A stretch of 40,988 bases of DNA. It comes from Acidobacteriaceae bacterium. Its GTDB lineage: Bacteria; Acidobacteriota; Terriglobia; Bryobacterales; Bryobacteraceae. The notes under the pieces were generated by a model, which was not told the DNA's origin, made no database searches, and worked only from the letters and a program-made list of their open reading frames with translations. The stretch lies in the NCBI GenBank assembly GCA_019240405.1, contig JAFAYL010000060.1:1-40988 (forward strand), in the 5' to 3' direction. Below are positions 24,581 through 31,702 of the stretch, one piece after another. Made by a program: the position numbers and the translations under genes. The stretch's first letter is position 1. Every line of letters begins with the position of its first letter.

Positions 24581-26358
24581 CGGAACTCCATACCTCGTAG
24601 GATGCCGTCGGTGCCCGCGTCCGGGTTAGGCGCGGCAGCGTATTCAACATTCACGTCTTTTAAGGGCTGAGGACCGCACGTGAATTCGGCGGGCGCATTG
24701 GTCATGAGCACGTGAGATGGATCGGGAACCGCGAGCGTGAGTGGTCCACCGGCGGTGTCGAGCGTGACTCCGGCGACGCGGTCACCCCGGCACTGAATTT
24801 CGCGCAGTTTTGCTGAGGCGCGGCGGATCTTATCTCCGGGCTCGATGAATGCGTTCCAATGTTGGGTATTGTGTGGAACGCGTGTGGTCATGAGTTGCGG
24901 GCGGCCGCTTGCATCGCGCGTGAATTGAACGGCGAGATCGGTTTGCGCGACGTAGGCAAGCTGGGCGGCATTGGCTCGCTCAGCGGCGTTTGCGGCGTGC
25001 TGCATCGCCTGGCGGGCGGCAGAGATTGCCTCCTCGCGCTTATCGAGCTGAGTTAGCGCGTAAGCAAGAGCGCTCCAGTACGCGTAAGAGCGAGCCGGGT
25101 TAATGTGTCGCATTGCGCGAAGCTGAGTCACAGCAGAATCGTAGCGGCCTGCATTGCTTTCGAGCAGCGCGAGATTGAAACGCGCATCGTCGAAATCCGG
25201 TTTCAATGCGATGGCTCGTTCGAGCGCGGTCCGGAGCTCGTTCGGTGGGACGCCAGCATCTTGGGCGATTGCCACATATCGATAGCAAAGCCCGGCATCG
25301 GTTATGCCGAGATCGATAGCGCGCTTCCACTCTTTGCGCGCAGTTTCACGATGGCCTTTGCGCAGGGCGATCGTGCCGAGAGCGGCGGAGATATCTGGAT
25401 CCGCGGGCGCCTCGCCGGCGAGATTGCGATAGAGCGACTCGGCGCGATCCAATTGCCCGCCCGCGAGGAGCAGGTCGGCCATGAGTGAGCGCGAGGCAAA
25501 CGGGGAGAGAATCGATACTTGAACCGCGAGATTGCGTGCGGGGATGCCGGGCAGCACGAGAGGCGGGAAGCTGATGCGCACACTTGCATGCATGTCACCT
25601 TCAATCGCGTCCAGAGGTTTGCGAAATACGGCGGGTAACGCTTCGGGACTTGGCGTTCCTGAGGCAAGCGCTTCAATGAGAGATTGAAAACGCGGTCCGT
25701 ATTCTGGCGAGAGGATGAGCATTTGAGTCAGGGCCCAACTTTCGGCGTAGAACAATGCCGATTGGTCGCGATCATCACGCAGAGGAGAGTCAGACGGCAG
25801 AGTCAAGAGTTGACGCAAGGGCATCCACGGGACGCGCCGCAGCAATTGAGAGCGCGAAGGTAAATCTCCGCCGAGAGTACAGTCGTTTTCCTGGATCCGG
25901 ACGGTGGAGAAGAAGTCAGCGAGGCCCTCGTCGAGCCAGGGCGGAAGCCGCAGGCCGGCGACATACCGGATGAGATGCTCGTACTCGTGAGCGGCGATGG
26001 GAAATTCGCTTGAATCGATTCCGGACATCACGATGTAGTCACGTCCTTCCGTTCCGATGTAGTAAGCCTTTGACGTGGGACGGAGTTGGTACGGGCGGGA
26101 ATCAGCGAGCGAACGGAATGCGATTACTCGTACAGGCGGACGGGCGCTTATGTTTAGACCCGCCTGCTGCTCGGCGAAGGCGCGTAGTTGTTCAAACCAC
26201 GTGAGGGCGGCGCGAGCGCTCGCCTCGCCTGATTGCGAATACAATTCGAAGTGATCCGTGCGGACGAGAGTCCAACCGGGACTATCGCTGCTGCTACTTG
26301 CAGGGGCCGCGGAAGCGAGACAGCAGAATAAGGCTAATAGCGCAGGACAAATTTTCAC
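24577..26358 (-). CDS. Exported TPR protein with HExxH metalloprotease-like domain
   Basis: A 593-residue protein with a signal peptide (1-20). Residues 30-260 resemble the peptidase MA / DUF1570-like group: HEYEH at 124-128 fits HExxH zinc ligands with catalytic Glu125, and WLDEGLADFF supplies the third ligand at Glu144. From about residue 285 several TPRs follow (blocks LYRNLAGEAPADPDISAALG, ALERAIALKPDFDDARFNLALL and AISAARQAMQ). The C-terminal 120 residues look beta-rich and are unassigned. The ATG overlaps the phosphatase stop (ATGA), so the two are translationally coupled. Protease activity is plausible from the intact motif but untested. Confidence 0.8.
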   Translation of the reverse strand: MKICPALLALFCCLASAAPASSSSDSPGWTLVRTDHFELYSQSGEASARAALTWFEQLRAFAEQQAGLNISARPPVRVIAFRSLADSRPYQLRPTSKAYYIGTEGRDYIVMSGIDSSEFPIAAHEYEHLIRYVAGLRLPPWLDEGLADFFSTVRIQENDCTLGGDLPSRSQLLRRVPWMPLRQLLTLPSDSPLRDDRDQSALFYAESWALTQMLILSPEYGPRFQSLIEALASGTPSPEALPAVFRKPLDAIEGDMHASVRISFPPLVLPGIPARNLAVQVSILSPFASRSLMADLLLAGGQLDRAESLYRNLAGEAPADPDISAALGTIALRKGHRETARKEWKRAIDLGITDAGLCYRYVAIAQDAGVPPNELRTALERAIALKPDFDDARFNLALLESNAGRYDSAVTQLRAMRHINPARSYAYWSALAYALTQLDKREEAISAARQAMQHAANAAERANAAQLAYVAQTDLAVQFTRDASGRPQLMTTRVPHNTQHWNAFIEPGDKIRRASAKLREIQCRGDRVAGVTLDTAGGPLTLAVPDPSHVLMTNAPAEFTCGPQPLKDVNVEYAAAPNPDAGTDGILRGMEFR

Positions 26359-27356
26359 GCTATGGCCATGCGGCCGAGCACCACGATGGTCGTGTCGTCC
26401 GATTTCAGTGATCCATTGCAGAAGAGCCGAAGGTCGTCCCGGCAGGCGGCGATAAGTTGTGAAGGATTAGCACAGCGGCTCCTTGCAATCAATTTGCAAA
26501 GCCGGTCCGACCCGTATTGAGCTCCTGAAGAATCCGACGCTTCAGAAATTCCATCGGTGTACATCAGCAGGCTGTGACCGGGCCGAAGGTTTAGTTCGCC
26601 TGCCAAGAACTGCTCATTGCAGAACATTCCGACAGGCAAGCCCGAGGCCTCAACAGGCGTTACAGCGCCGTCGTGAACGTGTAGCGGAGGAGGATGTCCA
26701 GCGTTGACAATTACAACTCTGCCGTTTGGCTCGGCGCGTCCGCAAATCAGGGTCGCGTATTGATTCGGCAATGTGCTTTCGCAAAACACGCGAGTCGCGT
26801 GCGAGAGTATCTGCTCGAGCGGCAAGCCGACCGAGATCAAAGTGCGGAACATGGCATGGAGGTGCGCCATCAACATGGAGGCCGCTACGCCCTTACCCGA
26901 GACATCGCCGACCATGAAATAGAATCCGTTCTCGCCTGCGTCGACGATGTCGAAGTAATCGCCGCTGACGATGCCGACCGGCTCGTAGTGATGTGCGACG
27001 TGCCAACCGCAGCACATGAGATCCTGCTGGGGCAGTAAAGCTCGCTGCACCTGAGCAGCGAGCTGGAGGTCGTGTTCGAGCGCGTCTCTTTGTTCCTTGT
27101 TCAAATGATTCAGGCAGAAGCGAGTGAGCGGATCGGCGATCAGGCGGTCGGTTTCAACGGGGGTATGGCAGTATTCACAAATTCCAAAAGACCCGCAGTC
27201 CATGCGAGCGAGAGCGTTATCGACCTCGCTTAGCAATGCATGAAGTTGGGGCGCGTGGGCCGATTCGGCGACGGCATGCTGGAGCTTATGGCGGCGATCC
27301 AGCAACTGATCGCGCATGAAGGTGTCTAACATGTCTGCTGTTTGAGTTTCGGGCAT
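26355..27356 (-). CDS. Zinc-finger/SpoIIE-type (RsbU-like) PP2C phosphatase fusion
   Basis: A 333-residue fusion. Residues 14-84 resemble DksA/TraR: a helical hairpin, then a zinc finger C60-x2-C63-x17-C81-x2-H84, with His as fourth ligand where DksA has Cys. Residues 95-330 are a PP2C SpoIIE domain: QRALLPQ, SGDYFD (Asp133), GDVSGKG (Asp151), NAGHPPP, YTDGISEA (Asp268) and DDTT (320-323) supply the metal-binding aspartates. RsbU-type phosphatases usually dephosphorylate an anti-anti-sigma STAS protein in partner switching; no STAS or kinase gene is adjacent. The TPR metalloprotease-like gene overlaps its stop. Confidence 0.85.
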   Translation of the reverse strand: MPETQTADMLDTFMRDQLLDRRHKLQHAVAESAHAPQLHALLSEVDNALARMDCGSFGICEYCHTPVETDRLIADPLTRFCLNHLNKEQRDALEHDLQLAAQVQRALLPQQDLMCCGWHVAHHYEPVGIVSGDYFDIVDAGENGFYFMVGDVSGKGVAASMLMAHLHAMFRTLISVGLPLEQILSHATRVFCESTLPNQYATLICGRAEPNGRVVIVNAGHPPPLHVHDGAVTPVEASGLPVGMFCNEQFLAGELNLRPGHSLLMYTDGISEASDSSGAQYGSDRLCKLIARSRCANPSQLIAACRDDLRLFCNGSLKSDDTTIVVLGRMAIA

Positions 27357-27444: not shown

Positions 27445-27465
27445 CTCAGGCTGCCGAAGCCTGAG
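27445..27465 (-). terminator. Hairpin over the regulator stop codon
   Basis: CTCAGGCT and AGCCTGAG form an 8-bp stem with a 5-nt loop spanning the last codons and stop of the MntR-like gene. On the minus strand a T-run (27407-27414 region, six T) follows some 30 nt later, further than in a classical terminator. It may slow or end transcription before the phosphatase gene. Confidence 0.4.
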
Positions 27466-28156
27466 GCGTCCGCGCGACGACAAAGATTTGAGCGGCAAGG
27501 TGTTGACCTAACCGGATCGTGCTGTTCTGACCGCCAATCCGTACCAGAAGCGAGGCATTGCGTACGCCCGCTTCGACAACGACCGAAGTGCCTGGACGCA
27601 AACCCAATCGTTCGATAGCCCTAAGATCCGAGGCGTCACGATCGGAGACACTGCTGATCAAAGCCGGCACGCCACAGGCCCAATTCAACAAGTTCACCTC
27701 ATCCCTCGCAGAGAAAGCGCCGTTTCTCTCGGGAATGACATGACCGTGCGGATCGAGCAGCGGATCGCCCAATTTCGCGGCGATCTTATCTTCGAGCTTT
27801 TCCGAGATGAAATGCTCAAGGCGCTCTGCTTCCTCGTGAACTTCGTCCCAGCCGTAGTCCAGGAAGTCATGCAGAAAGCGTTCGAGAAGGCGATGATGCC
27901 GCAGCACTTCGAGTGCCCGTTTCCGTCCAGCAGTGGTTAAGCGCGCGCCGTGATGCTTCTGGTATTTGACCAGCGCTGGCTTGTCTGTCGAGAGCTTCTG
28001 CAGCATGCCGGTGACGGAGGCAGCCCGGATACCGAGATGTATAGCCAGCGCATTACTGGCGACGCGCTGATCTTCAGGTCCACTCAGCTCAAGAATTGCC
28101 TTGAGATAGTCATCGGCGGATTCTGTATGGCCTTTAATGCGAGATTTAGACGGCAC
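27446..28156 (-). CDS. mntR: DtxR/MntR family metal-dependent repressor with FeoA domain
   Basis: A 236-residue regulator. Residues 1-75 are the winged helix, 80-145 the metal-binding dimerisation domain, and 155-230 an SH3-like FeoA domain. Candidate ligands are Asp16 (SADDYLKAIL), His88 (HHRLLERFL), His107 (EVHEEA), Glu111, Glu114 and His115 (ERLEH). Position 16 is Asp where DtxR has Met10, and 111 is Glu where DtxR has Cys102; both match manganese-type MntR. The GTG start at 28156 touches a TTTAG-N6-CTAAA box, so autoregulation is likely. TTGCCC (28189-28194) and TAGACT (28167-28172) form a promoter with a 16-bp spacer. It is divergent from the TonB-dependent receptor. The symbol is by similarity; an iron sensor is not excluded. 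Confidence 0.88.
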   Translation of the reverse strand: MPSKSRIKGHTESADDYLKAILELSGPEDQRVASNALAIHLGIRAASVTGMLQKLSTDKPALVKYQKHHGARLTTAGRKRALEVLRHHRLLERFLHDFLDYGWDEVHEEAERLEHFISEKLEDKIAAKLGDPLLDPHGHVIPERNGAFSARDEVNLLNWACGVPALISSVSDRDASDLRAIERLGLRPGTSVVVEAGVRNASLLVRIGGQNSTIRLGQHLAAQIFVVARTPQASAA

Positions 28157-28160
28157 TAAA
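28145..28160. promoter_or_regulatory. DtxR/MntR-type box over the regulator start codon
   Basis: TTTAG-ACGGCA-CTAAA on the plus strand: perfect 5-bp arms around a 6-bp spacer, covering the regulator's GTG start (28154-28156). It shares arms and spacing with the box at 28222-28237. Confidence 0.55.
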
Positions 28161-28166
28161 TATGCA

Positions 28167-28194
28167 GTCTATCGTAACTGGGCATTCCGGGCAA
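28167..28194 (-). promoter_or_regulatory. Promoter of the MntR-like regulator
   Basis: On the minus strand, TTGCCC (28194-28189) and TAGACT (28172-28167) are separated by 16 bp. The -10 ends 10 nt before the GTG start, so the message would be leaderless or nearly so. Confidence 0.4.
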
Positions 28195-28208
28195 GCGGCA
28201 AGAACGCG

Positions 28209-28217
28209 TGATATGCT
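28209..28217 (+). promoter_or_regulatory. Extended -10 promoter of the TonB-dependent receptor
   Basis: TG-A-TATGCT is an extended -10. Its end is 11 nt before ATG 28229, and the predicted start of transcription falls within the box at 28222-28237. Confidence 0.45.
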
Positions 28218-28221
28218 CTGT

Positions 28222-28237
28222 TTTAGGCATGCCTAAA
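28222..28237. promoter_or_regulatory. DtxR/MntR-type box over the receptor start codon
   Basis: TTTAGGCATGCCTAAA is a perfect 16-bp palindrome whose centre contains the ATG start codon of the TonB-dependent receptor. TTAGG/CCTAA half-sites are those of the DtxR family. The arms are the same as in the box at the regulator's own start. Confidence 0.65.
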
Positions 28238-31200
28238 TTACTAATTTCACTGTTCGTTTTGTTTGGCGCATGGCTCACCGGATCTTCGATGTGTGAAGGC
28301 CAGGGCGAAACGACAAGCGCGCTTGCCGGCCAGGTGAGCGATGAGACGGGCGGTGCGGTTGCGCAGGCACAGGTTACGATTTCGAATGCTCGAACCGGTC
28401 TAAAACGGACCGCACAAACGGATGGCGCCGGCCGTTTCGAGTTTCCGCAGTTAGCCCCCGGCGTGTATTCCGTTCAGGTTGCGGCGCCGGGGTTTCAGAC
28501 TCAGCAAAACAGTGCAGTCGCGGCGCCGCTTGGACGTACTCAAACAATGAATTTCGTTTTGCAGATCCCAACCATGACCCAGGCTGTGACGGTAAGCGAA
28601 CAAACGAATCTCATCAGTCCCGAGAACCCAAATACCACGACAACGTTTACAGCACCGTCGCTCGCGAACCTTCCGAACCCTGGCGGAGATATGACGTATC
28701 CTCTCCAATTTGCTGCGGGAGCTCTTATCAATACGGCAGGTAGCGGAAACGATTTCGTTGGCAGCACAAACGGCTATGGCAATGTCGAATTCAACGGCCT
28801 GCCAGCGCTATCGAACGGCTATATCGTTGATGGCCTCGAGACGAACGACCCTTTGACGAACCTCAACAGTGGTCTTTCGACGAACCTAGTGCTCGGATTG
28901 AATTCCATTGCGGAAGTTACCGTGAATACCGTCTCTTATGCTGTCGATCAAGGCCGTTATGGAGCGTCGCAGGTCAACTATGTCACCAAGTCCGGCACGA
29001 ACGAATTTCACGGCAATCTATATGAGATCTGGAACGGATCACGGTTCAATGCGGCGGATTTCTTCACGAACGCGACCCCCGGTAATCATAAGCCGCGCTC
29101 GACTGTAAACCATTTCGGCGGGAGTTTAGGTGGCCCGATTCTTCGCAATAAGCTTTTTTTCTTCTTTGATTCGGAGTGGGTTCGGATCGCGCTGCCGATC
29201 GTAACAGCAACAACAGTGCCGACACCGGCTCTCAGAACGTACATCCTTGGACAGCTTCGTACCGGTGGCCGGGATGCGCTAACCGGGGCGACATATCCTG
29301 CCCAGCCTCAGCTCGTGCCGTTCTATCAAAAGCTGTTTTCGCTCTACGGCAACACGAGCGGCACACCGCTTGCCGTCCTGGGCTGTCCCTTTAGCAGCAA
29401 TGGGGCCGATGCAATAGGAAATCCACCAAGCGGAAATGGATGCGCGAACCGTCAAAGTGTTTCGCATTCAAGCGATGATCACGAGCAAGTGCAGACTGCC
29501 CGCGTCGATTACAACATCAACGACAAGAACATGACTTGGTATCGTTTTCAATACGACGGCGGTTTACAGGCGGTATACACCGATCCAATCAATCCCCTGT
29601 TCAACGCCATTTCACCTCAGCCGCTCTACTCGTTCGCCTCGGGCTACACGCACGTTTATTCGCAGAATCTGGTCAACTACTTCAATCCCGCTTTTTCGTG
29701 GTATGAGAGCTTATTCGGTCCGGCGAATTTGGCGCGGACACTCTCAGCGTTTCCGATTGTGCTCGAGCCAAGCGGTTCGAGCGCGCCGTTCACCTCGCTC
29801 GGAGGCATGGACAATTCATGGATTCAGGGACGCGGCGCAAGCCGCTTTTTCATCAATGACAACCTGGCGTGGAATGTGGATGCGCACGAATTTCGCTTTG
29901 GCACAAATACGCGGATCTTTTGGCTGAACGACTATGATTTCGGCCAAGGTACGGTGCCCACGGTCACGTACACAGATCTGCCGGAGTTCATTTACGGGAT
30001 CGCATCCACCGCAACCGAAACTTTTCCATTCGCAGATTCACAGCCATTCCACTTTTTAAACGCAGATTTTTACGCGCAGGACACCTGGAAGGTGACTTCA
30101 AGCGTCACGTGGACGCTCGGGCTCAGAGCGACTCACAACTCGAATCCGCTGAACCCGCACGATCTGGTGGCGCGCTTGCCGGGCTCGTTTGCGGCCATTT
30201 CACACGATGTCAACCAACCTTTAGATGAGCTGATACGGACCGGCGCTCGAAATTTATTCGAATCCACGCCGCTTGCGATCTTACAGCCGAGAACGGCCAT
30301 TGGATGGCAGATCAGGCCAAAGACGGTGCTGCGAACAGGCTTCGGCCTGTTTAGCGATCTGCTACCCGGAAGCATCGCGGATCTGCTGGGAGCGAACCCG
30401 CCTTATGTGAATACCTTTCAGGGAGGTTTATCGGGGACGGTGGGAGGAATCGCGATCGCGCCCGGTGTTCCCGCGAGTGCGGTTGACGCGACGGTGCAGG
30501 CCGATCAAAGCTTTCTGACCGGTTTTCAGAAGAGCGAGATCTCGTGCGCCTCAACACTTGCAAACGCGCACACTTGCATTCCACCGGTTTCCATCACAGC
30601 GGCCCCTGAGGGGAAGCTGCATGCCCCGTACGTCATGCAGTGGAGCTTTGCGTTGGAACATCAACTGGGCAATTCGGTTAATTTGCGAGCTCAGTACGTG
30701 GGAACCCGCGCTGTGAATCAGCCTTATACGATGCAGGTCAATGGCTATCAAACCGTGTGCGCCGGTTGTTTCTCGCGATTCCCTTATCGGGAGCCGACGG
30801 ACGCGCGATTTGCGGCGGTAACACAACTCAATACGGGCGCAAACAGCCATTACAACGGACTCCAAATTACGGCGGAGAAACGGCTGCAAGGCGGGCTGCA
30901 GGCGCAGATTAATTACACCTTGAGCCACTGCATTGACACCGTGTCGAACGGCGGTTTCCTGCAGTTTTCAGCAGGCGGTATTCTTTCGCCTCTGCCCTAT
31001 GATCTGGGTCGCGATCGCGGCCCGTGTGATTACGACATCCGGCATAACCTTACGGGGAATTACACCTATCAGCTTCCGCTGAAGGTGCGCAACCGCTTGC
31101 TCGGATATGGTTTGAACGGCTGGCAGATATCGGGTTCCGTGTTCTGGCACAGCGGAATTCCATTCTCCGTTCTGAGCGCGCCTTACACAGCAAATGGGAA

Positions 31201-31702
31201 TGGCATTGTCAATGGAAGCGGTCCGCAGTTCGCGAGTGTAGTCCCCGGTGTGCCGTTGTATGAGCACAATCCCATTCCCGGTATTACGCAAACAGGGACA
31301 ATTCAGTGGCTGAACCCGAATGCCTTTGTTTCTGCCGTAGACCCGAGCACAGGTGCTTGCGCGGACGGGAATACCCTGCGGAACTGTCAATTCGGAGATC
31401 TCGGCCGCAATGCGCTGCGAGGACCAGATTTCATATGGAGCGATTTCTATCTAACAAAGTGGTTCCTGTTGACCGACCGAATCAAGCTTCGCATTGAAGG
31501 GCAATTTTTCAATGTTTTCAATCACGCGAATTTCGCCTTACCGTCAATTGTGATCGCCGGGGTTCCCGGCAATCCGGCGACACAGACCGGATTCGGAGCG
31601 CTCACTTACACAACATCGCCTCCCACGGGTCTTCTCGGGGTCGGGTTGGGCGGTGACAGTTCCCCGCGCATGATCGCTTTTCAGGCGCGCTTAGAATTCT
31701 AA
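28229..31702 (+). CDS. Oar-like TonB-dependent receptor with carboxypeptidase-regulatory domain
   Basis: A 1157-residue outer-membrane protein. A signal peptide covers about residues 1-22. Residues 28-115 form a carboxypeptidase-regulatory-like (Ig) domain: LAGQVSDETGGAVAQAQVTI and GRFEFPQLAPGVYSVQV. The plug follows, with FNGLPALSNGYIVDG and YVTKSGTNEFHGNLYE, then the long barrel ending FQARLEF with a C-terminal aromatic residue. The class is abundant in Acidobacteriota and usually linked to glycan or peptide uptake. ATG 28229 is chosen over GTG 28208 because it starts the signal peptide cleanly. The start lies inside a perfect DtxR/MntR box and the divergent neighbour is an MntR-like repressor, so metal-regulated expression and a role in metal uptake are inferred. 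Confidence 0.92.
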   Translation: MPKLLISLFVLFGAWLTGSSMCEGQGETTSALAGQVSDETGGAVAQAQVTISNARTGLKRTAQTDGAGRFEFPQLAPGVYSVQVAAPGFQTQQNSAVAAPLGRTQTMNFVLQIPTMTQAVTVSEQTNLISPENPNTTTTFTAPSLANLPNPGGDMTYPLQFAAGALINTAGSGNDFVGSTNGYGNVEFNGLPALSNGYIVDGLETNDPLTNLNSGLSTNLVLGLNSIAEVTVNTVSYAVDQGRYGASQVNYVTKSGTNEFHGNLYEIWNGSRFNAADFFTNATPGNHKPRSTVNHFGGSLGGPILRNKLFFFFDSEWVRIALPIVTATTVPTPALRTYILGQLRTGGRDALTGATYPAQPQLVPFYQKLFSLYGNTSGTPLAVLGCPFSSNGADAIGNPPSGNGCANRQSVSHSSDDHEQVQTARVDYNINDKNMTWYRFQYDGGLQAVYTDPINPLFNAISPQPLYSFASGYTHVYSQNLVNYFNPAFSWYESLFGPANLARTLSAFPIVLEPSGSSAPFTSLGGMDNSWIQGRGASRFFINDNLAWNVDAHEFRFGTNTRIFWLNDYDFGQGTVPTVTYTDLPEFIYGIASTATETFPFADSQPFHFLNADFYAQDTWKVTSSVTWTLGLRATHNSNPLNPHDLVARLPGSFAAISHDVNQPLDELIRTGARNLFESTPLAILQPRTAIGWQIRPKTVLRTGFGLFSDLLPGSIADLLGANPPYVNTFQGGLSGTVGGIAIAPGVPASAVDATVQADQSFLTGFQKSEISCASTLANAHTCIPPVSITAAPEGKLHAPYVMQWSFALEHQLGNSVNLRAQYVGTRAVNQPYTMQVNGYQTVCAGCFSRFPYREPTDARFAAVTQLNTGANSHYNGLQITAEKRLQGGLQAQINYTLSHCIDTVSNGGFLQFSAGGILSPLPYDLGRDRGPCDYDIRHNLTGNYTYQLPLKVRNRLLGYGLNGWQISGSVFWHSGIPFSVLSAPYTANGNGIVNGSGPQFASVVPGVPLYEHNPIPGITQTGTIQWLNPNAFVSAVDPSTGACADGNTLRNCQFGDLGRNALRGPDFIWSDFYLTKWFLLTDRIKLRIEGQFFNVFNHANFALPSIVIAGVPGNPATQTGFGALTYTTSPPTGLLGVGLGGDSSPRMIAFQARLEF

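Follow-up and report, generated by a model that had tools for sequence, protein, structure and literature searches.

Predicted operators over both start codons of an MntR-like regulator and a divergent Oar-like receptor gene suggest a small regulon for outer-membrane metal uptake in an acidobacterium

Why would the gene for a metalloregulator and the divergently transcribed gene for a large outer-membrane receptor each carry the same inverted repeat on the start codon? The locus that raises this question lies on a contig (C17, 40988 bp) that was analysed over its entire length, hereafter the window, and that belongs to a 4.45-Mb acidobacterial genome with a completeness of 95.8%. The regulator gene (27446..28156, - strand) has a GTG start and encodes a DtxR/MntR-family protein of 236 aa; the receptor gene (28229..31702, + strand) encodes an Oar-like outer-membrane protein of 1157 aa, here referred to as type A. 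The initial annotation had placed a TTTAG-N6-CTAAA dyad over the GTG and a palindrome with the same arms over the ATG, and inspection of the sequence finds both dyads exactly there: (i) box 1 (28145..28160, without strand; TTTAGACGGCACTAAA) is a predicted operator that holds the regulator GTG (28156-28154) at box offset 4, and (ii) box 2 (28222..28237, without strand; TTTAGGCATGCCTAAA) is a predicted operator, a perfect 16-bp palindrome, that holds the receptor ATG (28229-28231) at box offset 7. The two start codons point away from each other across a spacer of 72 bp. The receptor ORF has an alternative in-frame GTG upstream, at 28208, and we favor the in-box ATG because relatives repeat an in-frame start at the same position in the box. 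On our best reading, the locus forms a small regulon of an MntR-like type that serves metal uptake at the outer membrane, and we estimate a probability of roughly two in three that it consists of an autoregulated Mn-type (MntR-like) regulator and one divergent target, the Oar-like receptor.

The simplest explanation for two such boxes is chance, and box number by itself offers nothing against it. The exact pattern TTTAG-N6-CTAAA has two copies in the genome, both at the regulator/receptor locus, and 42 one-mismatch sites lie elsewhere; a first-order Markov model predicts 1.2 exact copies and 49 sites at up to one mismatch compared to 2 and 44 observed, and the pattern read backwards, which served as a control, yields 8 and 241, respectively. 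Box number was dropped as evidence, as it lies close to or under the chance expectation and falls short of the reversed control; the evidence consists solely of position and conservation. With respect to position, once one exact copy is given, another would fall within 200 bp of it with a probability of about 1e-4. The expectation in the initial annotation that mntH, feoB or similar genes would share the box did not hold in this genome, as the genome-wide scan gave no further exact copy, and the one Nramp region inspected among three in this genome has no box at up to one mismatch. Eighteen of the 42 one-mismatch sites were compared with mechanically called ORFs of at least 100 aa: 15 lie inside ORFs (one of these, L039, just 35 nt past a start) and three lie outside, i.e. 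33 nt upstream of a 132-aa ORF (L046), 175 nt upstream of a 375-aa ORF (L099) and between divergent ORFs that by eye resemble a tyrosyl-tRNA synthetase and a transporter (L100). At these 18 sites, no metal gene was recognised by eye.

Conservation gives a different picture. Orthologues of the regulator (E<=1e-30) are found in 52 of 237 family genomes at 53 places, and the surroundings of all 53 were compared. The family belongs in or close to the Bryobacterales, in line with a feoB fragment of genome G142 that has 100% identity to the one of a named Bryobacterales MAG (L004 and L171). At 49 of these loci a box with at most one mismatch lies within -400..+100 of the regulator start. In total, the promoter windows contain 74 boxes at this threshold (45 of them exact) in 25.7 kb, whereas 563.5 kb of other DNA from the same loci contain two, neither of them exact; at this background rate, 0.09 boxes would be expected in the promoter windows, and this comparison was made without picking loci by their boxes. 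Outside the box, the promoters have diverged to about random, given that box-aligned flanks compared in 8-nt windows have a pairwise identity of 23-35% on the receptor side (28 loci) and 25-41% on the regulator side (35 loci). The box arms are 91-94% identical pairwise, a value that is partly obtained by construction because the loci were picked for a box with at most one mismatch (28/33 and 35/53, respectively). Thus, even if about 1.2 exact copies are expected in the genome anyway, the 74 boxes versus 0.09 expected contradict chance, for which we see a negligible probability. Based on these comparisons, both boxes are very probably operators of the adjoining regulator.

Does the receptor box belong to the receptor, or does the regulator control itself only, with the receptor box as a by-product of a common divergent promoter? 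A type-A receptor, whole or in part, is divergent from the regulator at 33 of the 53 places, several of which are cut by contig ends (L135 retains residues 946-1090 only). The receptor has a box with at most one mismatch at 31 of these 33 places, 28 times its own and three times a single box shared with the regulator (L157, L158 and L160); at L159 and L165, where both genes are present, a box at this threshold is absent on either side. The regulator in turn lacks a box at its own start in nine of the 33 loci, and at L131 and L162 the box counted for the regulator is that of the receptor. The divergent arrangement with start codons 72 bp apart, the three shared boxes, and an unlinked second receptor copy in genome G199 (L197), which has no box at up to two mismatches in a genome where the regulator is present, all fit autoregulation only. 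Three observations argue against it: (i) in genome G016 the receptor lies on a different contig than the regulator and yet its ATG still lies in an exact box, which a further box, with one mismatch, precedes by 67 bp, and the regulator of that genome is itself without a box; (ii) in 20 of the 33 type-A loci an in-frame receptor start lies inside the box, always at offset 7; and (iii) the box also occurs at unlinked receptor genes of a second type in G023 and G065. Control of the regulator only is therefore, in our judgment, highly improbable.

The two second-type cases emerged from a search for the exact palindrome TTTAGG-N4-CCTAAA in 42 genomes (about 284 Mb), 30 with and 12 without the regulator, the latter defined by having no match at E<=1e-30, with assembly gaps possible in some; 26 of the 52 regulator-bearing genomes were outside this search or only partly covered by the strict word. 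The palindrome occurs at 17 places in 16 genomes, all 16 among the 30 genomes with the regulator and none among the 12 without. Fourteen of the places are the regulator locus, one is the G016 receptor, and two are second-type receptor genes or operons: in G023 the palindrome lies at the start of an unlinked receptor gene with a one-mismatch box beside it, and in G065 it lies about 18 nt upstream of a gene that by eye is pheA-like, the second-type receptor following 3 nt further on. The reversed control palindrome is found at 25 places, 18 in the 30 genomes and seven in the 12. As the control is commoner (25 vs 17), the palindrome is not enriched in number, but its places are special. The converse comparison starts from the type-A receptor, which has matches at E<=1e-250 in 36 of the 237 family genomes; six of the 36 lack this regulator by the same E<=1e-30 threshold, and only one of these six (G195) has a box at the receptor within one mismatch, with one mismatch. 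All six carry a PF02742 gene of another kind.

Which metal would such a regulator sense? The protein contains a winged helix, a metal-binding/dimerisation domain and a C-terminal FeoA (SH3-like) domain, matching the Pfam models Fe_dep_repress (PF01325; 42.5 bits, cut-off 26), Fe_dep_repr_C (PF02742; 96.4 bits, cut-off 27) and FeoA (36.2 bits, cut-off 23). The N-terminal winged helix together with the metal-binding/dimerisation domain places it in the DtxR superfamily, and it is the sole PF02742 match in its genome. The predicted ligands D16, H88, E111, E114 and H115 are conserved in 50, 53, 52, 53 and 53 of the 53 orthologues, respectively. In the available part of one report, the Mn-specific set of Bacillus subtilis MntR is given as Asp8/Glu99/Glu102/His103 and the Fe-specific set of DtxR as Met10/Cys102/Glu105/His106 (PMC4805248); D16/E111/E114/H115 match the Asp/Glu/Glu/His set of the Mn type and not the Met/Cys/Glu/His set of DtxR. 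B. subtilis MntR uses Glu11 in its second Mn site; the aligned residue is a lysine in 51 of the 53 orthologues, so that this mark of MntR is missing. SloR and ScaR, two Mn regulators with solved structures, likewise align with a lysine at this position, so that Glu11 is no general mark of Mn regulators. Scores against the curated NCBIfam MntR models stay below their cut-offs (NF047407, 181.5 of 350 bits; NF003025, 51.8 of 138; NF008273, 44.6 of 153), and we use the name MntR-like for this reason.

Alternatively, the regulator might sense iron in the manner of IdeR or DtxR and the receptor import a ferric chelate. The boxes resemble what we take to be DtxR/IdeR half-sites, the FeoA domain is a shared feature, the Glu11 position is a lysine, and relatives of the regulator adjoin feoB, which usually encodes an iron transporter. 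This alternative is nevertheless at odds with the D/E/E/H rather than M/C/E/H ligands, with Nramp as the partner at seven places and with a score of 79.5 bits against a cut-off of 290 for the actinobacterial DtxR model. Moreover, the FeoB linked to MntR in Porphyromonas gingivalis is described, in the text available of that study, as a manganese transporter (PMC4805248); because a FeoB-type Mn transporter thus occurs in an MntR operon, the feoB context of the relatives is compatible with Mn. Weighing these points, we consider an iron-sensing regulator unlikely and the sensed metal to be likely Mn rather than Fe.

The partner genes in relatives bear on what the receptor carries. At the 20 places without a type-A receptor, 18 have a box with at most one mismatch, and the partners are (i) a second-type receptor at six places, identified by Pfam at L156, L161 and L167 and by similarity at L128, L166 and L168, (ii) a Porin_O_P-like porin, barely over the Pfam cut-off, at one place, (iii) Nramp/mntH directly downstream of the regulator at seven places, all in genus g34, other members of which carry the type-A receptor, and (iv) a feoB context at four places, with feoB itself seen at three and the fourth (L172) inferred from an adjacent dtxR-like second gene after which the sequence ends; at two places no partner was recognised. 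Relative to all 53 places, the boxed regulator is followed by Nramp at seven and stands in a feoB context at four. Second-type receptors with disrupted reading frames occur at L128 and L156, and at L153 the Nramp match is split in two. On a regulator tree (FastTree, midpoint root), in which some nodes are weak, the context changes nine times over the 53 tips. Genes of the mntH and feoB kind, which the initial annotation expected in the regulon and at which the genome under study has no exact box, do adjoin the same regulator in relatives, and the suggestion in that annotation that the receptor is tied to metal supply gains support from this comparative evidence.

We call the receptor a metal importer mainly because the partners are inner-membrane metal importers or outer-membrane proteins. 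The data suggest that this receptor of soil acidobacteria takes up a metal, probably manganese, and import of a metal or a metal chelate appears fairly likely to us. A metal-regulated receptor could, however, have a non-metal cargo, i.e. an organic ligand needed in metal limitation or a chelator with an incidental metal. Consistent with this possibility, the regulator in G227 is followed by a gene for a sodium symporter of the Na_sulph_symp/CitMHS type, and a first look for candidate stretches of such receptors gave 83 in the genome under study (32-378 in the family genomes listed), most of which presumably have other cargo. Given that the relatives have metal transporter genes (mntH, feoB) as partners and that, in the 42 genomes, the exact palindrome was found nowhere but at genes or operons of the regulator and the receptors, we regard a non-metal cargo as rather unlikely. 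As an observation in its own right, the symporter gene of G227 (L167:4446-5867) lies after the MntR-like gene, an arrangement that might fit uptake of a metal-organic acid.

The receptor protein combines an N-terminal carboxypeptidase-regulatory-like domain (PF13620, CarboxypepD_reg; 1.8e-20) with an outer-membrane beta-barrel (PF25183, OMP_b-brl_4; 8.7e-139), the combination by which Oar-like/SusC-type receptors are defined. Pfam (E<=0.001) finds no Plug domain in it, and because this domain is not recognised, TonB dependence of the type-A receptor is presumed only; in the second-type receptors, the Plug domain scores above the cut-off at L156 and L247 and below it at L161 and L167. An alignment of 30 receptor sequences contains eight near-invariant cysteines (C386, C405, C773, C783, C844, C847, C901 and C933) and six such histidines, and a metal site was sought among them; no convincing metal motif was found in this alignment, and the translated type-A receptor has no CQNC motif. 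A search of solved structures returned nothing relevant for the type-A receptor and weak matches (E about 0.1) to YncD and a PQQ transporter for a second-type receptor.

Why, then, would the operators lie on the start codons? The initial annotation had proposed that the regulator blocks initiation and perhaps translation at the start codon. In 21 regulator genes a GTG lies at box offset 4, and promoters were scanned for -35/-10 pairs with 200 shuffles as a control, L138 being excluded because its in-box GTG is out of frame. A -10 element with its end 6-9 nt ahead of the start codon is present in 18 of the 21 regulator genes (shuffles: mean 2.2, largest 6) and in 12 of the 20 receptor genes with an in-box start (shuffles: mean 2.9, largest 8); for six other regulators with an in-box ATG, two fit this spacing (shuffles: mean 0.7, largest 4). 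A distance of 6-9 nt is the usual one from a -10 element to the transcription start, which makes it likely that most of these genes have their start codon at +1 or close to it. In the window, candidate elements that match the consensus only are an extended -10, TGA-TATGCT (28209..28217, + strand), ending 11 nt before the receptor ATG, and a -10, TAGACT (28166..28171, - strand), ending 9 nt before the regulator GTG; for the regulator, the pair scan ranks TACGAT best, which ends 14 nt before the GTG. The best -10 elements of the window, at 11 nt and 14 nt, are thus beyond the 6-9 nt range, and it is the promoter spacing in relatives that suggests leaderless transcripts. In the accessible portion of a survey of leaderless genes, these are predicted to make up 9.7-19.4%, on average 13.3%, of the genes in three acidobacterial genomes (PMC3160421). 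A translation block at the start codon is unsupported, given that proteins of the DtxR family bind double-stranded DNA and that the spacing in relatives favors a block of transcription; thus, of the earlier proposal, regulator and receptor boxes for one DtxR/MntR-type regulator are borne out by the comparative evidence and translational control is not.

Combining the conservation of the boxes with the promoter spacing, we suggest the following scheme. In the presence of ample metal, for which Mn(II) is the most likely candidate, a metal-loaded dimer would occupy the TTTAG(G)-N4/6-(C)CTAAA boxes of both genes. Because each of these would overlap the presumed transcription start, just 3' of the -10 element, we propose that RNA polymerase would be excluded from the regulator promoter and the receptor promoter alike. 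Under metal scarcity the repressor would depart and the receptor would be produced, and it would import the metal or its chelate through the outer membrane. Leaderless or nearly leaderless transcripts would account for the position of the start codons inside the boxes, such that transcription start, start codon and operator coincide. A broader version of this scheme, to which we give somewhat less than even odds, holds that (i) the Mn regulon of the family has been cut down to a self-controlled regulator and one receptor, (ii) the Oar-like receptors are importers of Mn or Mn chelates, (iii) the partner was swapped several times, for a second receptor type or a porin, with the operator kept and, in many genomes, still enclosing the start codon, and (iv) the operator on the start codon represents metalloregulation of leaderless genes in these bacteria. 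The locus may explain how Acidobacteriota control their manganese uptake, a conserved metalloregulator operator at one Oar-like family would provide these receptors with a direct, testable function, and the superposition of operator, presumed transcription start and start codon would make for a clean case in which to study leaderless-gene control.

The closest published parallel is from Stenotrophomonas maltophilia, in which an MntR-controlled locus for a TonB-dependent receptor and a thioredoxin-fold protein has been reported (PMC13217887, 2026), and this makes the link between MntR and a receptor less novel. As far as the available text of that report goes, the two systems share an MntR-type regulator and an MntR-box before an outer-membrane receptor gene near mntR, and the locus has a proposed role in Mn/Fe-limited growth (PMC13217887). 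They differ in that the S. maltophilia box is 25-bp long and sits 75 bp ahead of the start in the space between -35 and -10, whereas the acidobacterial box overlaps the start codon; in that the S. maltophilia receptor has a CQNC plug motif, which the type-A receptor lacks, and a pTFP partner, whereas the gene adjoining downstream at the acidobacterial locus is not of the thioredoxin-fold type; and in that the S. maltophilia module includes mntH and mntP, whereas the acidobacterial genome has no further exact box. MnoT of Burkholderia, a Mn-specific TonB-dependent transporter, is similar, set beside the type-A receptor by its description in the part of the paper at hand, as an outer-membrane receptor that imports Mn under scarcity, and differs in its partner, a Mn-binding protein that is secreted by a system under OxyR activation (PMC8602904). 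PgMntR-FeoB2 of P. gingivalis, as portrayed in the text available, parallels the feoB context of the acidobacterial relatives in that an MntR-type regulator with a FeoA domain lies beside a Mn-carrying FeoB; there, the target is an inner-membrane transporter, and PgMntR has Cys108 at the position of the acidobacterial E111 and two FeoA domains (PMC4805248).

ScaR and SloR are Mn metalloregulators of streptococci, which are Gram-positive and have no outer membrane. They share the DYLK and EAExLEH metal-site motifs with the acidobacterial regulator, and ScaR aligns across the FeoA-type domain; lacking an outer membrane, these bacteria offer no such receptor as a target. In the literature search, with most subscription journals outside its scope, neither an MntR-receptor pair in Acidobacteriota nor, for Oar-like/carboxypeptidase-regulatory-like TonB receptors in Acidobacteria, an assignment of cargo was found. 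For Granulicella, the available part of one study lists mntR-like ORFs and yet concludes that the regulator is another one (PMC7315648).

Several observations lie beside this argument. Upstream of the type-A receptor in G084, G222 and G224 (L190, L194 and L195), three of the genomes lacking the MntR-like regulator, repeats like TTAACTATAGTTTA are seen by eye, which resemble, again by eye, sequences before the second-clade DtxR genes at L077, L079 and L081; they were not seen at the second-clade genes of these three genomes themselves (L226, L219 and L218). The similarity suggests that another DtxR-family regulator may have replaced the MntR-like one there. In G124, an E1-E2 P-type ATPase gene, confirmed by Pfam, and a small ORF lie ahead of the type-A receptor gene (L191); a similar small ORF precedes the receptor in G137 (L192), where no ATPase was seen. 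These two cases may provide a further metal-linked context for the receptor family.

A porin-like divergent partner accompanies both the MntR-like gene in G219 (L163), where the Porin_O_P match is barely over the Pfam cut-off, and a second-clade DtxR gene in G038 (L079), where it is under it. In the feoB-type relatives (L004:6762-7820 and L088-L096), the gene after the regulator encodes another protein, of ~350 aa. In L004 this protein has an N-terminal hydrophobic stretch, as judged by eye, followed by DtxR metal-binding and FeoA domains, and is possibly a membrane-bound regulator; FeoB comes after it and is split into two ORFs. A plasmid search with the locus returned three records with short matches within annotated regulator genes. 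Finally, the window contains at 26355-27356 (- strand) a gene for a SpoIIE-type phosphatase with an N-terminal DksA/TraR-like zinc-finger stretch that scores below the Pfam cut-off, an unusual pairing.
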